DNA from: Galactobacillus timonensis
Lineage (GTDB): Bacteria; Bacillota_I; Bacilli_A; Erysipelotrichales; Erysipelotrichaceae
Direction: 5' to 3'
DNA length: 64,000 bases
Assembly: GCF_900240265.1 (NCBI RefSeq)
Contig: NZ_LT964739.1
Span: forward strand, 425,126 to 489,125
Below, one piece after another: positions 298 to 61,954 of the stretch. The translations under genes and the position numbers were made by a program. The notes beneath the pieces were generated by a model. The model saw only the letters and a list, made by a program, of their open reading frames with translations, made no database searches and was not told the origin of the DNA. Position 1 is the stretch's first letter, and each line of letters opens with the position of its first letter.

Positions 298-560
298 CAG
301 AACGACGTTGATGAAGAAAGTCCTGCCGCAAACAGTGCAGAGAGAGTCCTACAAAGGTGGAAACGGACGATATGCGCAGCAGGGAAGTCACTTCAGAGTC
401 TGCAGGCGAACGGAAACAAGTAACCTGTTACGCATGGCAGCGTTAAAGGCCTATGGCTTGTCGGAGCCGGAAGAGTGGCATGAAAATATTCATGCAAATT
501 GAGTGGTACCGCGGTGTATATCCATCGTCTCAATGCAGTCTGAGACGATGGTTTTCTTTT
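298..560 (+). promoter_or_regulatory. T-box riboswitch, valine-type specifier
   Basis: The T-box core TGGTACCGCG is at 504-513 and is followed by a terminator. In stem I, GAAG (313-316) pairs with CTTC (391-394), and CCTGC (322-326) pairs with GCAGG (379-383). Between these stems the 3' side of the specifier loop reads GAA-GTC-A, so the specifier codon is GTC (387-389), valine. Uncharged tRNA-Val should stabilise the antiterminator and switch on brnQ. The UGGU bulge fits an A discriminator base. The specifier is read by eye, by analogy with known loops. Confidence 0.85.
522..560 (+). terminator. T-box-controlled terminator ahead of brnQ
   Basis: CCATCGTCTCA (522-532) pairs perfectly with TGAGACGATGG (541-551), followed by TTTTCTTTT. 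The 5' arm follows directly on the T-box core, as expected for mutually exclusive terminator and antiterminator folds. Confidence 0.85.
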
Positions 561-33157: not shown

Positions 33158-36100
33158 TTAGTTGGCTGAATCGCTTCCAACCTCGGATGTCTTAATCACA
33201 AACTTCACACTGTCATTCGAGTTTCCGCTTCCCGTAAAGCTTGTATAGTCTGCGCCTGCATCCACGATGGCATCGAGACGATCAATGACACTGGGCAGAT
33301 CGTTTCCAAATACATCCGCCAGCTTCTGAATGCCTTCGCTGTCAAACTTCTGCATACCATCGAGAAGATCCTGCGCACCATTATCCAGCTCACCAGCACC
33401 ATCACGCAGCTTCAGAATACCGTCATAGAGCTCATTGGTACCATTGGAAAGCGTCGTACCGCCAGCAATCATCTTCTGATAATCCGCATTGTTCAAAATG
33501 CTTTCCAGAGCCTTGACAGCACCAGCTTCACCAGCCGCCTGACCATAATCCGCAAGGAACTGCTTAATCAAATCCGTCAGCTGATTCACCTGATCCAGCG
33601 AGAAGGAAACTGAAGCCGTCGAAACTACATAATCACTTGCACTGCCAATAAATGCTGTATCCGTTGTTTCAACAGAACCCGCTGCCGGAGCCTGGGACGC
33701 TGCTGCTGCCGCCGCATCAGCCTGAGCGGCCGCATAGCCCTGATTATAAGCATCGTCCTTCGCACTGTTTGCACTATCCAGCTGTGTCTGCAGATCCGCA
33801 TTCTTCGCATTCGCATCAGCCAGCTGTTTCTGAACATCAGCATTCTTTGCATTGGCATCGTCCAGCTGTTTCTGCACATCTGCGTTCTTCGCATTGGCAT
33901 CATCCAGCTGCGTCTGAAGTTCCGTATTCTTCTTATTGGCTTCCTCAAGCTGACTCTGTGTATCCGCAAGCTGCTTCTTCAGCTCCTCAACCTCTGCGGA
34001 AGCATCCGTATTTTCCGATGCCTGTGTCGTATCTGCTGCAGCTGCATCGCTTGTCACCTGCGCATCCTGCTTTGTTTCGGAGGCAGCGTTATCGTTCTGT
34101 GCATCCTGTGCTGGCGCAGCAGAATCTTCTGTCGCAGCAGAATCTTCTGCCGCAGCAGTTTCTTCCCCTTCCGCTGCTTCGTTGTTATCCTGTACCGTTG
34201 GTTCTTCCGGTGCAGATTCGACCGTGGCGCTTTCTTCCGGAACCTCTTCCATGACTGCGAAGCTGTTTAAGCTCAGGCCGCGGTGATGTTTCAGGATCCA
34301 CTTAGCCCAGTTACTCAGCTCACCGTTCTTGATAAACCCTACCTTTTCAAGAGTATCAAGCATCTTCAGCATCGCCTGCGCATTCTCGCTGTTATAGGTG
34401 CCACCCTTCATGATCCCGGCCTTGTTCATCAGCTGCTTTGCCGAATCTTCAAGATCACCATTGACAATAATTCCGGAATTTAGCATACTCTGCAAAGATT
34501 CCGACAACTGACCATCCGAAGTCAGAACACCCTGTGCCTCCAACTGCGAAGCAAGCTCAGCTTCCTTCTCAAGTTTTGCAAGCCCGTCCTTGTTAATGGC
34601 CAGCGCATCATTTCCCGCATCATCTTTCTTTGCTGTGATCAGGCCGACAGCCTCTGCCATCTGAAGCATATTCATCAGATTAGGATCCTGTGCCAGCGAA
34701 ATCAACTGCTTCTTCTGCAGCAGCTGCGCATACGTCGGATTTAATGTCAGCGCACCATCCTGATCGTTCACCAGAACCTTCTGATCCTTCATGGCCGTGA
34801 TCATCGCATCCATCTTCTGAATTCTCGCCGCCGCATCCTTAACAAGCTTTCCATTTTCATCCAGAAGACCCGCATCCTGCATCAGCTTCTGCGTCGCAGC
34901 CGCATAACCGCTCACGATCTGTGCCGCATTGTCCTTTACCGTACCATCCGCATTCAAAAGGCCAGCCGCCTGCAGCGCACCCGAGCCGTTCAACGTCTGC
35001 AGCAGAGTAATTAACTGTGTCGTACGCTGATCCGCATCCGCCGTCAGGTTTCCATTGGCATCCATGATACCCGCTACCTGCAGAAGACCCGAATTCATCA
35101 GTTTATCCGCCATATTTGCCAGCATCTTCAGCTGCGCCATCGTCTGTTGATTCACTCTTCCATCCGCATTCAGAATGCCCATCGAATTCAGCATCTTCAC
35201 AATCGCATCCTTGTCCGCTTCCGCCTTCGCCGAATCCTTTGCAAACGAAGCTTTCGTCGACTGCAGATTGCTGCGAAGACTTGCATCAAACGTATTCAGG
35301 CCGCCTGCCAGCTCACCAGCACCATCCTTCAGCTTGCCGCCGCCGCTTGCCAGATCATTGGTTCCGGTCCGCAGCTTCGCCGTACCATCCTTCAGCTGCT
35401 GCGCGCCGTCCACGAGCTGCTGCGACGCATCGGTCAGCTCATTGATGCTGTCCGTGATGCTGGAAGTATCAATCTTGCCATCCTTCGCATCCTTGAGCTG
35501 CGAAATCACATCCGTGCTGGCAACCGTCAACGTCATGCCAAGCGAAAAGTCTGTCGCATCCGCCTCAATCTCCACATACTCCGGAATATTGTAGTCACCA
35601 ACATTGTCCTTAAAGGAAGCGGAGTCCATATTCAGACTCTCCTTCAGACCGGGGAAAGCCATACCAACAACGATATTCGACTTGCCTTCCGACAGCACAC
35701 GGCCATTGGTAACCGTAATGTTCTTGAAATTATCAACCGGCAGAACAACACCCGAAACCATCGCAAACGGAACCTTGATCTCCTCATTCTTACCGTTGAT
35801 GGTCACGTTCTTTGTCGCATTGTTCTCGTAGTCAAAGCGGATCGTCACATGGCCGCTCTTGCCTGCCAGATCATCGGCCGATATATCCTTGCCGTCCAGC
35901 TGATAGCTCAGCTTCACGCTCACCGGCGCCTGCTTCGACGTCGTACCCTGATAGTAGATATCGTCGCCATCTGCCTGCCACGTCAGCTTATTGCCGGACT
36001 GCGTATAGGTCTCATCGCCCTCAACATTCGTAATATCACTGAGATCCGACGTATCTGTCAGCGTCTGAGAACCGTCCGGGTTCTTCAGCCAGTTGCTCAC

Positions 36101-36280
36101 AAGCGTCTTCTCAGGATTACCGCTGGCATCGGTAAAGACATAGACTGTCTCCTCCTTGCCCGCATCCGACGAAGAATCATCACTCTCTTCCGCACGCACC
36201 GTCATGCCAGATGCGACCGGCAGAATTGCCGCCATGCTGAAGGCCAGCAGCTTCTTGACCACATGTCTTTCTTTCTTCAT
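33158..36280 (-). CDS. Exported YhgE/Pip-like protein with internal repeats, partner of the MMPL transporter
   Basis: A 1040-residue exported protein. Signal peptide at 1-30 (VKKLLAFSMAAILPVASG). Residues 30-280 are a beta-rich domain. Heptads of the YhgE type (xxLxxGxxxL) lie near 285-330 (QLKDGTAKLRTGTNDLASGG) and again near 950-990 (LSNGTNELYDGILKLRDG). Between these, about ten degenerate repeats of G-[IL]-[LM]-x-x-[DN]-G occupy 350-680. An Ala/Glu-rich linker (about 695-780) and a coiled coil with AKNADVQKQLDDAN repeats follow. No C-terminal membrane helix is evident. It is encoded just after the MMPL gene and probably acts with it. Confidence 0.72.
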   Translation of the reverse strand: MKKERHVVKKLLAFSMAAILPVASGMTVRAEESDDSSSDAGKEETVYVFTDASGNPEKTLVSNWLKNPDGSQTLTDTSDLSDITNVEGDETYTQSGNKLTWQADGDDIYYQGTTSKQAPVSVKLSYQLDGKDISADDLAGKSGHVTIRFDYENNATKNVTINGKNEEIKVPFAMVSGVVLPVDNFKNITVTNGRVLSEGKSNIVVGMAFPGLKESLNMDSASFKDNVGDYNIPEYVEIEADATDFSLGMTLTVASTDVISQLKDAKDGKIDTSSITDSINELTDASQQLVDGAQQLKDGTAKLRTGTNDLASGGGKLKDGAGELAGGLNTFDASLRSNLQSTKASFAKDSAKAEADKDAIVKMLNSMGILNADGRVNQQTMAQLKMLANMADKLMNSGLLQVAGIMDANGNLTADADQRTTQLITLLQTLNGSGALQAAGLLNADGTVKDNAAQIVSGYAAATQKLMQDAGLLDENGKLVKDAAARIQKMDAMITAMKDQKVLVNDQDGALTLNPTYAQLLQKKQLISLAQDPNLMNMLQMAEAVGLITAKKDDAGNDALAINKDGLAKLEKEAELASQLEAQGVLTSDGQLSESLQSMLNSGIIVNGDLEDSAKQLMNKAGIMKGGTYNSENAQAMLKMLDTLEKVGFIKNGELSNWAKWILKHHRGLSLNSFAVMEEVPEESATVESAPEEPTVQDNNEAAEGEETAAAEDSAATEDSAAPAQDAQNDNAASETKQDAQVTSDAAAADTTQASENTDASAEVEELKKQLADTQSQLEEANKKNTELQTQLDDANAKNADVQKQLDDANAKNADVQKQLADANAKNADLQTQLDSANSAKDDAYNQGYAAAQADAAAAAASQAPAAGSVETTDTAFIGSASDYVVSTASVSFSLDQVNQLTDLIKQFLADYGQAAGEAGAVKALESILNNADYQKMIAGGTTLSNGTNELYDGILKLRDGAGELDNGAQDLLDGMQKFDSEGIQKLADVFGNDLPSVIDRLDAIVDAGADYTSFTGSGNSNDSVKFVIKTSEVGSDSAN

Positions 36281-36308
36281 ATCCATTCACCTCTTATTTC
36301 TCTGAGGC

Positions 36309-38387
36309 TTATGCCTCTGTCTCAACTTTCTTCGTGGACTTTGTCGTCTTCATGATCAGCTTGTCCAGCATCATCAACATGCTCGGCAGAACAAAGATGA
36401 CACATCCCATCGATATGACAGCGCCCCGCGCCATCAGTACACACAGCGAACTGATCACATCAATGTCCGAATACATACCGACACCGAACGTTGCCGCAAA
36501 GAAGCTGATTGCCGAAACAACAATCGACTTCGCACTCCGCTGTACTGCATCTTCAACCGCCGCCTTCTTATCCATGCCGGCGCCCCGGTTGCGCAGATAC
36601 CGCGTCGTCTCCAGAATCGCGTAGTCAACCGTCGATCCCAGCTGAATCGTACCGATGACGATGCCAGCAATAAACGGCACCGCCCGGTTCATATAGAACG
36701 GAATCGCCATGTTCACTGTAATGCCCAGGTAGATGACCAGGATCAGAATGAACGGCAGCGACGCACTCTTGAACACCAGTGCAATGATCACAAAGATGAT
36801 GCCGATCGACCACATGGACACGGCATTGAAGTCATGCGATGTCACATCGATCAGATCCTTCGTTGCCGGCGCCTCACCGATCAGCAGCGACCCGGAATCA
36901 TATTTCTTCGCAATCGACTTCAGCGAATCGACCTGCGCATTCACCTCATCACTGGCAACCGCATACTTCGAACCAATCAGAATCAGCTGCCAATTATCAT
37001 TCTTCAGATTCTTCGTCAGTTTCGTAGGAAGAAGATCATCCGGAACCATGCCGCCCTTGATCGTATCCAGACCAAGGACCCACTTCACACCGTCCACATC
37101 CTTCATCTCACGCGCCATTTCCTGAACCTTCGCCTCGGAAAGATCAGCGTTCACCATCAGGATGTGCGTCGAATTCATATCGAACTCATCCTTCAGCTTC
37201 GTATTAGCCACAACACCCGGCAGATCCTTCGGCAGCGTCGCCCCAAGATCGTAGTACTGCGGAATATGCGTATATCCATAAAGACCCGGAATCAGAAGGC
37301 ACACAGCCACCACCAGATACTTGTACGCATTCTTCGTCACATGATGACCGATTCCGTTGAAGTCCGGAAGAATCGCCTTATGATGCGTCTTCCGCAAAGG
37401 CTTATCAAACACAAGAATCATCGAAGGAAGAACCGTCACACAGGCAAGGACACCGAACAGAACACCTTTACTCATGACCAGGCCCAGATCCATGCCGAGC
37501 GTAAAGCTCATGAAACACAACGCAATGAAGCCCGCAATCGTCGTTATCGAAGATCCGATGATCGATGACAGCGTCTCACTGATTGCATTGGCCATCGCCT
37601 CATTACGCTCTTCCTTCAGAGTCAGATGATCCTCATAGCTGTGCCACAGGAAGATGCTGTAATCCATCGTCACGCCCAGCTGCAGCACCGCCGCCAGCGC
37701 CTTCGTAATGTACGAAATCTTGCCCAGAAACAGGTTGGTACCCAGGTTGTACATAATCGGAATACCGATCGAAGCCAGAAAGATGAACGGCACCAGCCAC
37801 GAATCCATACAGAGACTCAGCGCAATCGCCGACAGCAGCACAGCCATCGCAACATAGATCGGCGCCTCACGGTTCGAAAGATCCTCTGTATCTACAAGCA
37901 CCGCACTCATTCCCGAAAGATAGCACTGTTCACTACCTATGGCCCGGATCCTGCGTACGGCCGCCACCGTACCATCTTCAGAGGTTCCTTCATCAAACAG
38001 AATCAGCAGCACCGTACTGTCGCCGCTGTTGAATGCCTTGTACACCTGATCCGGCAGCAGCTCCACCGGCACATCAATGCTGGCAACATCATCCCACCAG
38101 ATCACCGACTTCACATGATCCACGTCCGCAATCTTATCTTTCAGCTTAACGACATCCTTCGCGTCCATCCCCTGCACGATATACATGGAGAAGGCACCCG
38201 TCCCAAACTCATCTTTCAGAATATCCTGCCCCTGCATCGTCTCAATATCCTTCGGCAGATACGTGAGCATATCGTAGTTGACCTTCGTATGCGCATAGCC
38301 GATCGTTGCCGGTATCAACAGCAGCAGAGACGCTATCAGGATGGGTATGTGCAGCTTCACTACCCATTTGCCAAATTTTTTCGACAT
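36309..38387 (-). CDS. MMPL/RND-family transporter
   Basis: A 692-residue membrane protein in two homologous halves. Each has one helix, a large extracytoplasmic domain and a bundle of five or six helices. Conserved blocks include LQLGVTMDYSIFLWHSYED in half one and IQLGSTVDYAILETTRYL in half two, with the MMPL-type Asp-Tyr pairs. The ATG at 38387 has TTGGAGGGAG upstream. Usually exports lipids or siderophores, or protects against amphiphiles. Paired with the YhgE-like gene 28 bases downstream and controlled by the divergent TetR gene (inference from operators). Confidence 0.88.
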   Translation of the reverse strand: MSKKFGKWVVKLHIPILIASLLLLIPATIGYAHTKVNYDMLTYLPKDIETMQGQDILKDEFGTGAFSMYIVQGMDAKDVVKLKDKIADVDHVKSVIWWDDVASIDVPVELLPDQVYKAFNSGDSTVLLILFDEGTSEDGTVAAVRRIRAIGSEQCYLSGMSAVLVDTEDLSNREAPIYVAMAVLLSAIALSLCMDSWLVPFIFLASIGIPIMYNLGTNLFLGKISYITKALAAVLQLGVTMDYSIFLWHSYEDHLTLKEERNEAMANAISETLSSIIGSSITTIAGFIALCFMSFTLGMDLGLVMSKGVLFGVLACVTVLPSMILVFDKPLRKTHHKAILPDFNGIGHHVTKNAYKYLVVAVCLLIPGLYGYTHIPQYYDLGATLPKDLPGVVANTKLKDEFDMNSTHILMVNADLSEAKVQEMAREMKDVDGVKWVLGLDTIKGGMVPDDLLPTKLTKNLKNDNWQLILIGSKYAVASDEVNAQVDSLKSIAKKYDSGSLLIGEAPATKDLIDVTSHDFNAVSMWSIGIIFVIIALVFKSASLPFILILVIYLGITVNMAIPFYMNRAVPFIAGIVIGTIQLGSTVDYAILETTRYLRNRGAGMDKKAAVEDAVQRSAKSIVVSAISFFAATFGVGMYSDIDVISSLCVLMARGAVISMGCVIFVLPSMLMMLDKLIMKTTKSTKKVETEA

Positions 38388-38405
38388 CAAACTCCCTCCA
38401 ATGAA

Positions 38406-42279: not shown

Positions 42280-43098
42280 TTACTGCTTCTGTTCCAGCAT
42301 CCGGTTCATACTGCCGGAATGAAAGCCTTCCAGATCCAGCGTCACATAAACAAAGCCCGCCGCCTTCAGCGTCTCAACAACCTGCCGGCGCAGCGTTTCA
42401 TCTTCAAAACGTGACAGATCCTTAGGAAGCACTTCGATACGGGCAAGTGAACCATGAACACGCACCCGCACCTGACGGAAGCCATGATTCAGCATAAATG
42501 TTTCCGCCGCCTCAACCCGTTTCAGCTTCTCTTCCGTGATTTCTTCGTCATACGAAATACGCGAAGCCAGGCAGGCAAAAGAAGGCTTATCCCAGGTAGG
42601 AAGATTCAGCTGCTTCGAAAGATCACGGATATCCTGCTTCGTCATCCCTGCTTCTTTTAGCGGACTGCGAATGCCAAGCTCCTTCAATGCGACAAGTCCT
42701 GGCCGATAGTCGCCCAGATCATCCAGGTTCGTGCCTTCCATAACGCAGGCAAGCCCATCCGCTTCCGCCTGCTTTTTTAATTCCGTAAACAGCGCATGCT
42801 TGCAAAGATAACAGCGGTTCGAAGGATTCTGCGCAACCCCGGGCTGACCAAGAACATCAAATGTCAGTTTCTTCTGAACAATCCCTTCCTCTTTGCAGAA
42901 AGCAGCCGCCTCACTGTTTTCCCACGAAGGGAAAAACACCGATCCGGCAGTATAGGCAATCACCTGATCCCCAAGGACCGCATGTGCCTCCTTCAGCAGA
43001 TACGTCGAATCTACGCCGCCGGAAAAGGCAATCGCCGCACTGCCCGCTTCCCGCAGAATACGATGCAGATCTTCTCTTTTTTCTTCTAAGGTTTTCAC
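42280..43098 (-). CDS. larE: Pyridinium-bisthiocarboxylate synthesis sulfur transferase LarE
   Basis: A 272-residue PP-loop ATPase with FSGGVDSTYLL (residues 25-35) and a Cys at 176 in KPSFACLASRI. C176 is the position of the sacrificial sulfur-donating Cys of Lactobacillus plantarum LarE. It also has CYLCK near 96-100. It thiolates the LarB product in nickel-pincer nucleotide synthesis. Its ATG overlaps the larC stop (ATGA). Last gene of the operon. Confidence 0.93.
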   Translation of the reverse strand: MKTLEEKREDLHRILREAGSAAIAFSGGVDSTYLLKEAHAVLGDQVIAYTAGSVFFPSWENSEAAAFCKEEGIVQKKLTFDVLGQPGVAQNPSNRCYLCKHALFTELKKQAEADGLACVMEGTNLDDLGDYRPGLVALKELGIRSPLKEAGMTKQDIRDLSKQLNLPTWDKPSFACLASRISYDEEITEEKLKRVEAAETFMLNHGFRQVRVRVHGSLARIEVLPKDLSRFEDETLRRQVVETLKAAGFVYVTLDLEGFHSGSMNRMLEQKQ

Positions 43099-44318
43099 TT
43101 ACGATCCATCTCTTTCTTGACTTCCCAAAGCGTCTGACCGGTCTTTTTGGCGATGGCGGCGAGGTCATCATATTCAGCCTTGATACGGTCTGTACCATAG
43201 CCGGTCGACTTTTTTACACGCACCGTTCCATCCCCCACCGCAACTGTTTCCATTTCACGTTTCAATACCGCCCGGTTCATCCTCTGATAGCGCACACCAA
43301 GCGTTGTCGTATAGCGGAACAAACACCTCAGCATGGCTTCTTGATCCTGCGGTGCACACAGCACTGTTAACAACACTGCCGGCCGGTTCTTCTTCATCTG
43401 AATCGAAGATGTAAAGACATCCTTCGCACCGGCTTCAAACAGCCGTTCAACCGCAAAGCCGATTTCCTCTCCAGTCATATCATCCAGATTCGTTTCCAGT
43501 CGCTCAATCTCTTCCGGTATGTCTTTTTCTACGGTTTCACCCACGAAGGCCCGAACACAATTGGACGCTTCAAAGTCTTTTTCGCCCATACCATAGCCAG
43601 TACGTTCCACCGTCATGACTGGCCGCACCCCAAAACTGGTGCCAAACGTTTTAAGAAGTGCGGCTCCGGTTGGCGTACACAGTTCGCCACGGAAACGCTC
43701 CTTGGCATAGGAAGGAATTCCACGCAGCAGATATTCCGTTGCCGGCGCTGGTACCGGAACGAGGCCATGCATACAGCGAACCTCACCATATCCCGTATTG
43801 ACCGGTGAAACGACAACCTGCTGCGCACCAATCGTATCCATCAGAACACAGACCGCAGTGATATCCATGATCGCATCTTTCATGCCAACTTCATGAAAGT
43901 GAACCTCACTGACCGGCATCTGATGGGCATGGCTTTCCGCTTCAGCGATCTCTCGATAAACATTCAGAATTTTGTCTGTAACTTCCTGTGGAAGCGGGAA
44001 GGATTCGATGGTTTGCTGAATGGATGCCATGGAAGCGTGATGATGGTGATGATGTTCCGCTTCCAGCGGATGCTCAGAATGATCACATGATTCATCGAGG
44101 CTCTTTTCCTCTTCCTTGTTGACGATGACGCGGAAATGCTTTCCGGCTATTCCGCATTTGGTGCTGTTTTCCAGTGTTACATGCACACCTTCCAGGCCGA
44201 GGTGATTGAGCTTGTCGATCACTTCGTTCTGCTTTGTTTCGTCCAAAAGGTCCAGCAGCGCACCTGCAAGCATATCGCCGGCAGCGCCCATATTGCATTC
44301 CAGATACAGTATCTTCAT
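43095..44318 (-). CDS. larC: Nickel insertase LarC
   Basis: A 407-residue protein beginning [20 protein letters not shown], with a His-rich loop (H89-H94 and flanking His) and [20 protein letters not shown] in the C-terminal half. It uses CTP to insert nickel into the pincer nucleotide. In L. plantarum the gene needs a ribosomal frameshift; here it is one continuous frame. Overlaps larB and larE by ATGA at both ends. Confidence 0.93.
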
Positions 44319-59767: not shown

Positions 59768-59804
59768 TAAAAACCAGGTCCGCCATTTGATGCACAGACC
59801 TGGT
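59768..59804 (-). terminator. Terminator of the BspA-like surface protein gene
   Basis: ACCAGGTC (59773-59780) pairs with GACCTGGT (59797-59804), followed on the minus strand by TTTTTAT. Confidence 0.8.
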
Positions 59805-59820
59805 ATAAGAAATCAAATCC

Positions 59821-61820
59821 TCAGTTGTTATTTCCCCCGCCAGCACCGGTTGCAGGAATGAATTTCTGTGCCGATGTGATCGGGAAGAAGATACTGCCGT
59901 TTGATGTTTTTGAATGTGTGGATGCTGTTGCAGAAGGGGTTGCAGAAGGAGCTGCAGCAGCCTTCCAGCCTGCATAAAGTGTTAACGTAGTCTCTGTGCC
60001 GAAATAATCGTCCACTATTTCCTTATCTAATTGATCTCCAAACAATGTGAACTCCCGTGTACATTCAGGATCCAAGTACCATCCGGAGAATATTACTCCC
60101 TCATAATTTGCCATATTAGAAAGGTCCGGCTGTGGTATTGGGTTTCCAAACTGCACTGGCATATCGTCTGGAGCGCCACCAGCCTTATGATAATTAATGT
60201 CGAACTTAAAAAGATAAGTTTTAGCATCCCAATGGGCATAGAGTGTCGTGTCTCCCTTGCAAACGGTATCAGCTGTCGCTGGAATACCATCGCTTGCGGC
60301 TGAAGTAAACCAGCCGGTGAAGTTATGACCTGTAAATGTTGGCACCGGAAGCTCGCCATATGTATTATGGACCATAACAGACTTGCGCTTGCTCTCATCC
60401 GGCAGTGTACCACCATTTGAGTCAAAGGTGATGATAGCATCTCTTTGTGCATACCATGTACCCTTCAAGACGCTACTTGTCAGGCCGAGATGGCCAAGCC
60501 CGACAGCATCATAAGACTGAGATGCCATTTCGGAGTCACGTCCCCACTTACCATTGGATTTCACACCGGAAACGGTTGTTGAAGGGGTGGGAAATATGTT
60601 TTCTGCATCAAAAGAAGTATATTTAAAATTCGAGCCAAAGGTAATGGATTTCAGACCGCTGCAGTTCTCGAACATCCAACCCATCCACTGTGCTTTGGTA
60701 TTCCAGTTTGAAACATCAATCGTAGTGAGACTCTTGCATCCTTTGAACATTTCAAACATGTCAGTTACATTGCTGGTATTCCATTTTGAAACGTCCAAAG
60801 AAGTGAGACTTTCGCAGGAGATGAACATTTGATTCATGTTTGTTACATTGCTGGTATTCCATTTTGTAACGTCCAAAGAAGTGAGGCTTTTGCAGGCGTC
60901 GAACATTAGTTTCATGTTTGTTACATTGCTGGTATTCCAGTTTGAAACGTCCAAAGAAGTGAGGCTTTCGCAGTGGTAGAACATACAATACATGTCAGTT
61001 ACATTGCTGGTCTTCCAGTTTGAAACGTCCAAAGAAGTGAGACTTTCGCAGTAAGAGAACATATCGGACATACTTGTTACCTTGCTTGTATCAAAGTCCT
61101 TGGTATCAATGTTCTTGATAGCCTTCATACGATAAAACAACTGATCACTATTTGCATTCAGCATTATCTTATCCGCTTTCGAGTACCAGTAAACTGTTCC
61201 GGTTGAACTGTCAAACCATGCAACAATAGAGCCGTTCTGCGATGCGGAAATATCCGCCGTCGTAACGCCAGAAGCAGGTGCCGAAGAACGGGTAAAGGCT
61301 TGAATGCTGGTATCATAGCGCCATAAGTCATGAGGATTTGCGTCACTGTTGCCTGCCAGCTTCATGATGGCTACATTGAACGCAATTCCTTGTTCCAATG
61401 TCGCCGTGGAAGTTGCAGGTGCTTTAAATACCGGCGCGGAAGAAAGGGAAGCGGATGAATCTGCTGTCGCTTCCGGAGTTGGTTCAGCACTCGCTTCTGG
61501 TATTGCTGCCGCTTTGGGAGCAATTGTTTTCTCAGTATCAGCGGAAGATGTTGTTGCTGGCACATCCGTTGTCGCTGTTGGAGTTGCAGACGGATCTGCG
61601 GAAGCTTCTGCTGTGGCACCTGGGCTGGCAGGTGTGTCCTTGCTTGTTTCGTCTGTTGTCACTTTACTTTGGTCACTCTGCTGTTCAGTTGGTTCTGCTG
61701 TAGGAAGAATTACTGTACCCCCCCCCCCGATGATTCACCGGTATCTTCCGCATGAATCGGACTGGTGCTCAGAGTAAGGATCATTGCAACAGAAAAAAGA
61801 CTGCAGATCAATTTCTTCAT
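59821..61820 (-). CDS. BspA/InlB-like surface protein, phase-variable, OFF in this sequence
   Basis: The ATG at 61820 (GAGGAGAGGGT upstream) starts a signal peptide (KKLICSLFSVAMILTLSTSP, then IHA-ED). An 11-G tract follows at 61728-61718 and the frame ends at once (VQ-stop). With one more G or two fewer, the frame joins a body of about 610 residues that runs to 59821. That body has a Pro/Thr/Ser/Ala-rich stalk, five or six DUF285 repeats (LTSLDVSNWNTSNVTNM), and InlB-B/Flg-new repeats (ITFDSNGGTLPD, then TLYAHW). It ends FIPATGAGGGNNN without a membrane helix. Probably an adhesin switched by slipped-strand mispairing. Confidence 0.8.
60650..61075 (-). repeat. Tandem DUF285 repeats at DNA level
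   Basis: Units of about 75 bases are nearly identical, each with a copy of TGAAACGTCCAAAGAAGTGAG or a close variant in plus orientation and TGTTACATTGCTGGT. They encode 25-residue repeats. The near identity makes copy-number change by recombination likely. Confidence 0.8.
61718..61728 (-). repeat. Homopolymer contingency tract, 11 G on the coding strand
   Basis: Eleven consecutive C on the plus strand (11 G on the coding strand) lie between the signal peptide and the body of the surface protein. 11 G gives a stop within three codons; 9 or 12 G restores the full frame. Confidence 0.85.
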
Positions 61821-61854
61821 ACCCTCTCCTCAATGACTTGATATAATCTTCAAT

Positions 61855-61884
61855 ATATTATCGGCCAGAACACATAAATATCAA
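61855..61884 (-). promoter_or_regulatory. Promoter of the surface protein gene
   Basis: Minus-strand TTGATA (61884-61879), an 18-base spacer and TAATAT (61860-61855). Confidence 0.5.
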
Positions 61885-61924
61885 CACATTTCTTATATAT
61901 GTTCCAATTTGTGTCTGCATGCAT

Positions 61925-61954
61925 GAAAAAATGCAGGCGCTTTTTATGCCTGCA
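61925..61954 (-). terminator. Terminator of gltBD
   Basis: TGCAGGC (61932-61938) pairs with GCCTGCA (61948-61954), followed on the minus strand by TTTTTT. Confidence 0.8.

Follow-up and report, generated by a model that had tools for sequence, protein, structure and literature searches.

A predicted poly-G contingency locus for a secreted PARCEL/DUF285 repeat protein in a probable Erysipelotrichaceae lineage

On the minus strand of a 64-kb stretch of bacterial DNA (64,000 nucleotides, here called the window), a leader with a signal peptide and a long open body with PARCEL/DUF285 repeats lie in different frames, one on each side of a run of 11 G. We consider it highly probable that this is a single-gene contingency locus, in which replication slippage would cause phase variation of a secreted, probably surface-exposed repeat protein. 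A DNA polymerase slipping on the run of G would alter the tract length and, with it, whether signal peptide and body share one frame. In the present phase, translation from 61820 would end a few codons past the tract, so that no exported protein would be expected; in another phase, the signal peptide would be followed by stalk, repeats, and tail, and the product would be exported. Slippage in the source organism and its reversibility are proposed by analogy, the source lineage presumably lives in the gut, and a role in binding the host or neighboring cells is what the family label would suggest. The features of the locus are as follows.

61932 to 61954, minus strand: intrinsic-terminator-like hairpin (by folding), a stem followed by T6, behind the upstream gltD-like gene
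61857 to 61884, minus strand: promoter-like TTGATA-16-GATAAT (consensus scan)
61826 to 61830, minus strand: ribosome binding site AGGAG (from the sequence), ending 5 nt before the ATG
61710 to 61820, minus strand: leader open reading frame of 36 codons (by frame reading), with the signal peptide and a brief Ser/Gly segment, closed by a stop in the present phase
61718 to 61728, minus strand: poly-G tract of 11 bases (from the sequence), C11 on the plus strand
61423 to 61717, minus strand: Pro/Ala/Thr/Ser/Glu-rich stalk (from the sequence), the downstream part of a module shared with relatives
59821 to 61662, minus strand: body open reading frame (ORF reading), 613 amino acids plus stop, with GTG at 61662 as its first start codon
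60619 to 61146, minus strand: DUF285/PARCEL and BspA-type leucine-rich repeats (Pfam/NCBIfam), body residues 173 to 348
60696 to 61091, minus strand: 78-bp tandem repeats (tandem-repeat analysis), 5.1 copies, encoding protein repeats
60232 to 60432, minus strand: Listeria-Bacteroides repeat (Flg_new, Pfam PF09479), body residues 411 to 477
59824 to 59961, minus strand: C-terminal tail ending ...NGSIFFPITSAQKFIPATGAGGGNNN (from the sequence), with an IPxTG motif and no hydrophobic tail
59773 to 59804, minus strand: terminator-like hairpin (by folding) behind the repeat-protein gene

The leader frame opens at ATG 61820, reads MKKLICSLFSVAMILTLSTSPIHAEDTGESSGGGVQ, and then stops. The body frame is bounded by a stop at 61735 to 61737, is open through the tract (up to 61734), and has 613 codons without an internal stop. 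A preliminary description of this DNA had held that signal peptide and body are split across exactly 11 G, and the tract coordinates and both frames confirm it. Slipped-strand contingency loci have this layout, in which open frames flank a long tract in the 5′ part of the coding sequence. The window has no other homopolymer as long as the tract, and the next G/C runs are of 6 bases. Order-1 and order-3 windows, simulated after training on the 64-kb window minus the tract, reached a G/C run of 11 in 5 of 150 and 0 of 150 cases, respectively (order-1 closed form, about 0.02 such runs expected). For runs of 8, a shuffle test was not significant, with 13 of 100 dinucleotide shuffles holding at least as many matches as the window's 4. 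Chance as the sole origin of the run is not absurd; the position of the tract directly after the signal peptide, together with the length differences among relatives, points to more than chance.

The strong ribosome site that had been claimed is present, with AGGAG 5 nt upstream of ATG 61820. The promoter and terminator claimed with it are plausible, but this part of the claim is weak because the site counts of the consensus scan do not rise above shuffles (5 promoter-like sites versus a shuffle mean of 4.6; 2 terminator-like sites versus 2.2) and one hairpin is unlisted by that scan. The hairpin at 61932 to 61954 folds at −17.3 kcal/mol (z −4.9), and the scan gives the same palindrome on the plus strand; for the one at 59773 to 59804, which is absent from the scan's terminator-like sites, z is −2.1 and 6 of 200 shuffles fold equally well. 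The minus-strand unit from 59773 to 61954 is self-contained, lying between two terminator-like hairpins with T-rich tails.

By hydropathy alone, the leader resembles a signal peptide, with a hydrophobic core whose 9-residue Kyte-Doolittle (KD) values reach 2.42; cleavage presumably falls after ...SPIHA. This export signal is present in the leader frame; only among relatives does it continue in frame into the body. In the body, PF03382 (DUF285) scored 132.5 bits (curated cutoff, 25), the NCBIfam PARCEL repeat model TIGR02167 scored 221 bits (cutoff, 30), and BspA-type LRR_5 scored 36.8 bits (cutoff, 27.7); the best DUF285 stretch covers body residues 173 to 261 and LRR_5 covers 227 to 348. PF09479 followed with one repeat at 64.9 bits (cutoff, 27). 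The label "BspA/InlB-like" given in the preliminary description thus stands for the DUF285/LRR_5 and Listeria-Bacteroides repeats and falls for internalin membership: none of the internalin models matches the window protein, and no GW/SH3 domain is among its Pfam matches. Relatives P0004 and P0006 match InlA/InlH models far below cutoff. A structure model built from a six-row alignment reached high confidence in the repeat region alone (pLDDT of 10-residue blocks, 83 to 96 over residues 151 to 320; overall mean, 54). Foldseek returned leucine-rich repeat proteins as the best solved matches (TM-score at best 0.20 by query and 0.40 by target for the top two), with internalins at ranks 6, 19, and 25 at low TM-scores and an E value of at most 0.001 in only 2 of 260 matches; two PDB chains matched by sequence (E values, 1.3e-06 and 8.7e-06). 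By a simple motif count, six relatives carry 5 to 11 repeat units, and the 78-bp repeats are a possible second source of length variation.

The claim that the product is a surface protein found no backing in the search for anchoring signals. No Cys, and thus no lipobox, was seen by eye at the cleavage region of the leader. The internalin InlA is anchored by LPXTG; in the C terminus of the window protein (KFIPATGAGGGNNN), an LPXTG motif with hydrophobic and charged tail was not found, and the end is neither hydrophobic nor charged. Surface attachment therefore stays putative. The tail of relative P0001 is identical to that of the window protein (maximum 15-residue KD in the C-terminal 45 residues, 0.85); more distant relatives P0122 and P0125 have hydrophobic, charged tails (maximum, 2.35 and 2.31). 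Of the 125 proteins retrieved as described below, 6 share a K(F/I)IPxTG ending. The IPxTG ending without hydrophobic or charged tail is conserved in P0001, P0002, P0003, P0004, P0007, and P0123, and in the window a hairpin lies close behind it.

A search of 5.8 billion proteins scored 7,995 candidates, of which the best 120 of 7,985 matches were taken; two further searches from N-terminal regions gave 10 and 6 matches, for 125 distinct proteins in all. By a motif test, 7 of these 125 carry the same module of leader, tract, and stalk. Because only their proteins were compared, tract lengths of relatives were derived on the assumption that the Gly/Ser/Arg codons are all G; on that assumption, four have the signal peptide in frame (P0001, 6 G; P0004, 12; P0006, 6; P0121, 9) and three have it out of frame (P0002, 7; P0003, 10; P0123, 10). 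At this protein level, alleles differ in tract length and occur both in and out of frame. P0001, which stands for a cluster of 13 member sequences, combines an in-frame signal peptide with a body that is identical to that of the window protein at 611 of 613 residues. The P0001 leader has MKKLICSLFFFFFFL in place of the window's SLFSVAMIL, despite the 99% identical body; this odd Phe-rich leader is perhaps a contig-end artifact. The P0121 sequence begins at a Met inside the leader. Record names assign P0006 to Galactobacillus timonensis (Galactobacillus is an Erysipelotrichaceae genus) and P0004 to a "Lachnospiraceae bacterium"; the window would probably come from the vicinity of Galactobacillus.

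The start peptides of P0002, P0003, and P0123 lie one frame off the leader. The DNA for those of P0002 and P0003 (MRKTLANHR and MRKTLVNHR) can also spell HAEDTGESS when read one frame back, a property of 0 of 200,000 random peptides of Met plus eight residues. The P0123 start, VNLR, fits GESS, as do 2,045 of 200,000 random peptides of Val plus three residues, a weak case. Because such starts are encodable with the leader end one frame back, the out-of-frame alleles appear compatible with an intact leader end, the part that the comparison covers. The inferred runs of 6 (P0001 and P0006) and 7 (P0002) are short and probably stable, so some alleles may be locked and not switching.

P0121 and P0123 bear the module before a passenger that differs from the DUF285 members. 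Module identity is 78% over 122 columns with P0004 and 87% over 99 columns with P0002. The two differently laden proteins are identical to each other at 514 of 584 columns (88%), and their inferred tracts of 9 and 10 G would place them in different phases. The C-terminal tail of most DUF285 members is also found in P0123. No Pfam family exceeded its cutoff in this second passenger; a Flg_new match near its end (P0123) was below cutoff, and its predicted structure had a mean pLDDT of 30. Since leader, tract, and stalk are common to two different passengers, the switch would seem to be a module serving several proteins, as seen for two passenger types. More tentatively, the module may be a reusable cassette placed before unrelated passengers, with independent slippage giving each cell its own combination of secreted repeat proteins and the 78-bp repeats contributing further variation on top.

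Scans of nucleotide collections confirmed no further relative. Genome contigs gave 26 stretches with the single protein as query and 103 with an alignment, none confirmed; viral contigs gave 62 stretches, none confirmed, and a second viral contig scan by DNA pattern gave 0 matches. Among plasmids, the gltD end had no near match at the DNA level, and tblastn of the body returned 85 records, in none of which a single place covered 80% of the query. Elsewhere, the window holds a T-box leader (299 to 535, plus strand; Rfam RF00230, 95.7 bits) immediately 5′ of a gene for a branched-chain amino acid carrier (604 to 1902), an MMPL-family transporter-like gene followed by a 1,042-residue protein with X-X-X-Leu-X-X-Gly heptads (33158 to 38390, minus strand), and a LarC gene for nickel pincer cofactor biosynthesis with the LarC1 and LarC2 domains in one open reading frame (43095 to 44318, minus strand).

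Homopolymers of this length are error-prone, and a sequencing or assembly error would mean that the true tract has another length and that the gene is always in frame. The in-frame state of the relative with 611 of 613 body residues fits such an error, as does the case of Bifidobacterium breve, in which the majority tract length in culture was not the annotated G11 (PMC9187656). However, three other relatives, from separate public protein clusters, are also out of the signal-peptide frame, and an error leaves the tract's retained place before two passengers unexplained; we regard it as unlikely. Being out of frame in the window sequence, the gene could also be a decaying pseudogene, but the 613 stop-free codons, the intact start region, ribosome site, and hairpins, the position of the sole lesion at a homopolymer, and the existence of a near-identical in-frame relative make decay extremely improbable. 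The earlier reading, that the contingency locus is intact and not in decay, is supported: in seven relatives the tract stays in place and the body stays open while inferred length and frame differ, and one in-frame allele matches the body at all but two residues.

RNA polymerase can also slip on long homopolymers. Transcriptional slippage on the tract, by which a constant fraction of the mRNA from the 11-G gene would be in frame and expression would be damped, not switched, predicts an identical anatomy. For a purely transcriptional device, though, the DNA-level length differences inferred among relatives would be needless, and G tracts of B. breve have been shown to vary at the DNA level (PMC9187656, in part); we think it quite unlikely as the whole explanation and possible as an effect added to DNA slippage. 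Compatible with a contingency locus is a three-state switch, in which runs of 1 mod 3 would let an internal ATG or GTG of the leader start a leaderless cytosolic form. Such starts are recorded in P0002, P0003, and P0123, and an ATG at 61753 (frame 1) corresponds to them in the window; against this, inspection by eye shows no ribosome site ahead of that ATG, and a leaderless stalk and repeat protein has no evident use. These starts are probably gene-calling artifacts, and a third state is very improbable.

If the contingency locus is real, poly-G phase variation of PARCEL/BspA-like proteins extends beyond mycoplasmas, and gut-commensal surface-protein switching extends beyond bifidobacteria (B. 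breve belongs to the Actinomycetota), in both cases to a probable Erysipelotrichaceae lineage of the gut. If the cassette reading is also true, a walled gut Bacillota lineage has a phasome of exported proteins, a subject absent among the literature matches listed. In open-licence literature (titles and abstract openings of part of the matches), poly-G switching in Erysipelotrichaceae was not found. Phase-variable genes can enter records as leaderless or broken proteins, as with the 3 of 7 relatives that start one frame off the leader, and the locus could serve as a marker of switching in metagenome reads.

The switch is of a kind known in other bacteria; what is new is the host, probably Erysipelotrichaceae, and the module common to two passengers, the latter being the most original aspect. 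The comparisons that follow draw on parts of the cited papers. The Mycoplasma agalactiae PARCEL/DUF285 proteins MAG1330 and MAG3260 belong to the same repeat family as the window protein but are lipoproteins of wall-less Mollicutes, whereas the window protein has no lipobox and combines a stalk with a Listeria-Bacteroides repeat and an end containing IPxTG; in M. capricolum, tracts lie in 5′ flanking regions, outside the coding region (PMC2996958). In "Ca. Mycoplasma girerdii" (2017), the length of short repeats puts BspA-like proteins into or out of frame, as in the window, with mixed repeat lengths in metagenome reads, but the repeats are mostly dinucleotide and the G8 homopolymer controls a methyltransferase (PMC5476646). 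Listeria inlA (2010) is likewise a Bacillota gene for a leucine-rich repeat surface protein with a homopolymer near its 5′ end, and differs in its poly-A tract and internalin family (PMC2831843). In Gardnerella (2024), several homopolymer tracts lie in surface-protein-like genes (PMC11287997). In B. breve (2022), a G tract lies between Sec signal and pilin body: the open reading frames of the sortase-dependent pilus clusters bbr_0113 and bbr_1889 are split by it as in the window (the bbr_0113 tract is annotated as G11), and length variation was found by Maximum Depth Sequencing (PMC9187656). There, the pilin has LPXTG and a sortase cluster and switching was shown by experiment, whereas in the window it is predicted from the tract, the two frames, and the relatives (PMC9187656).
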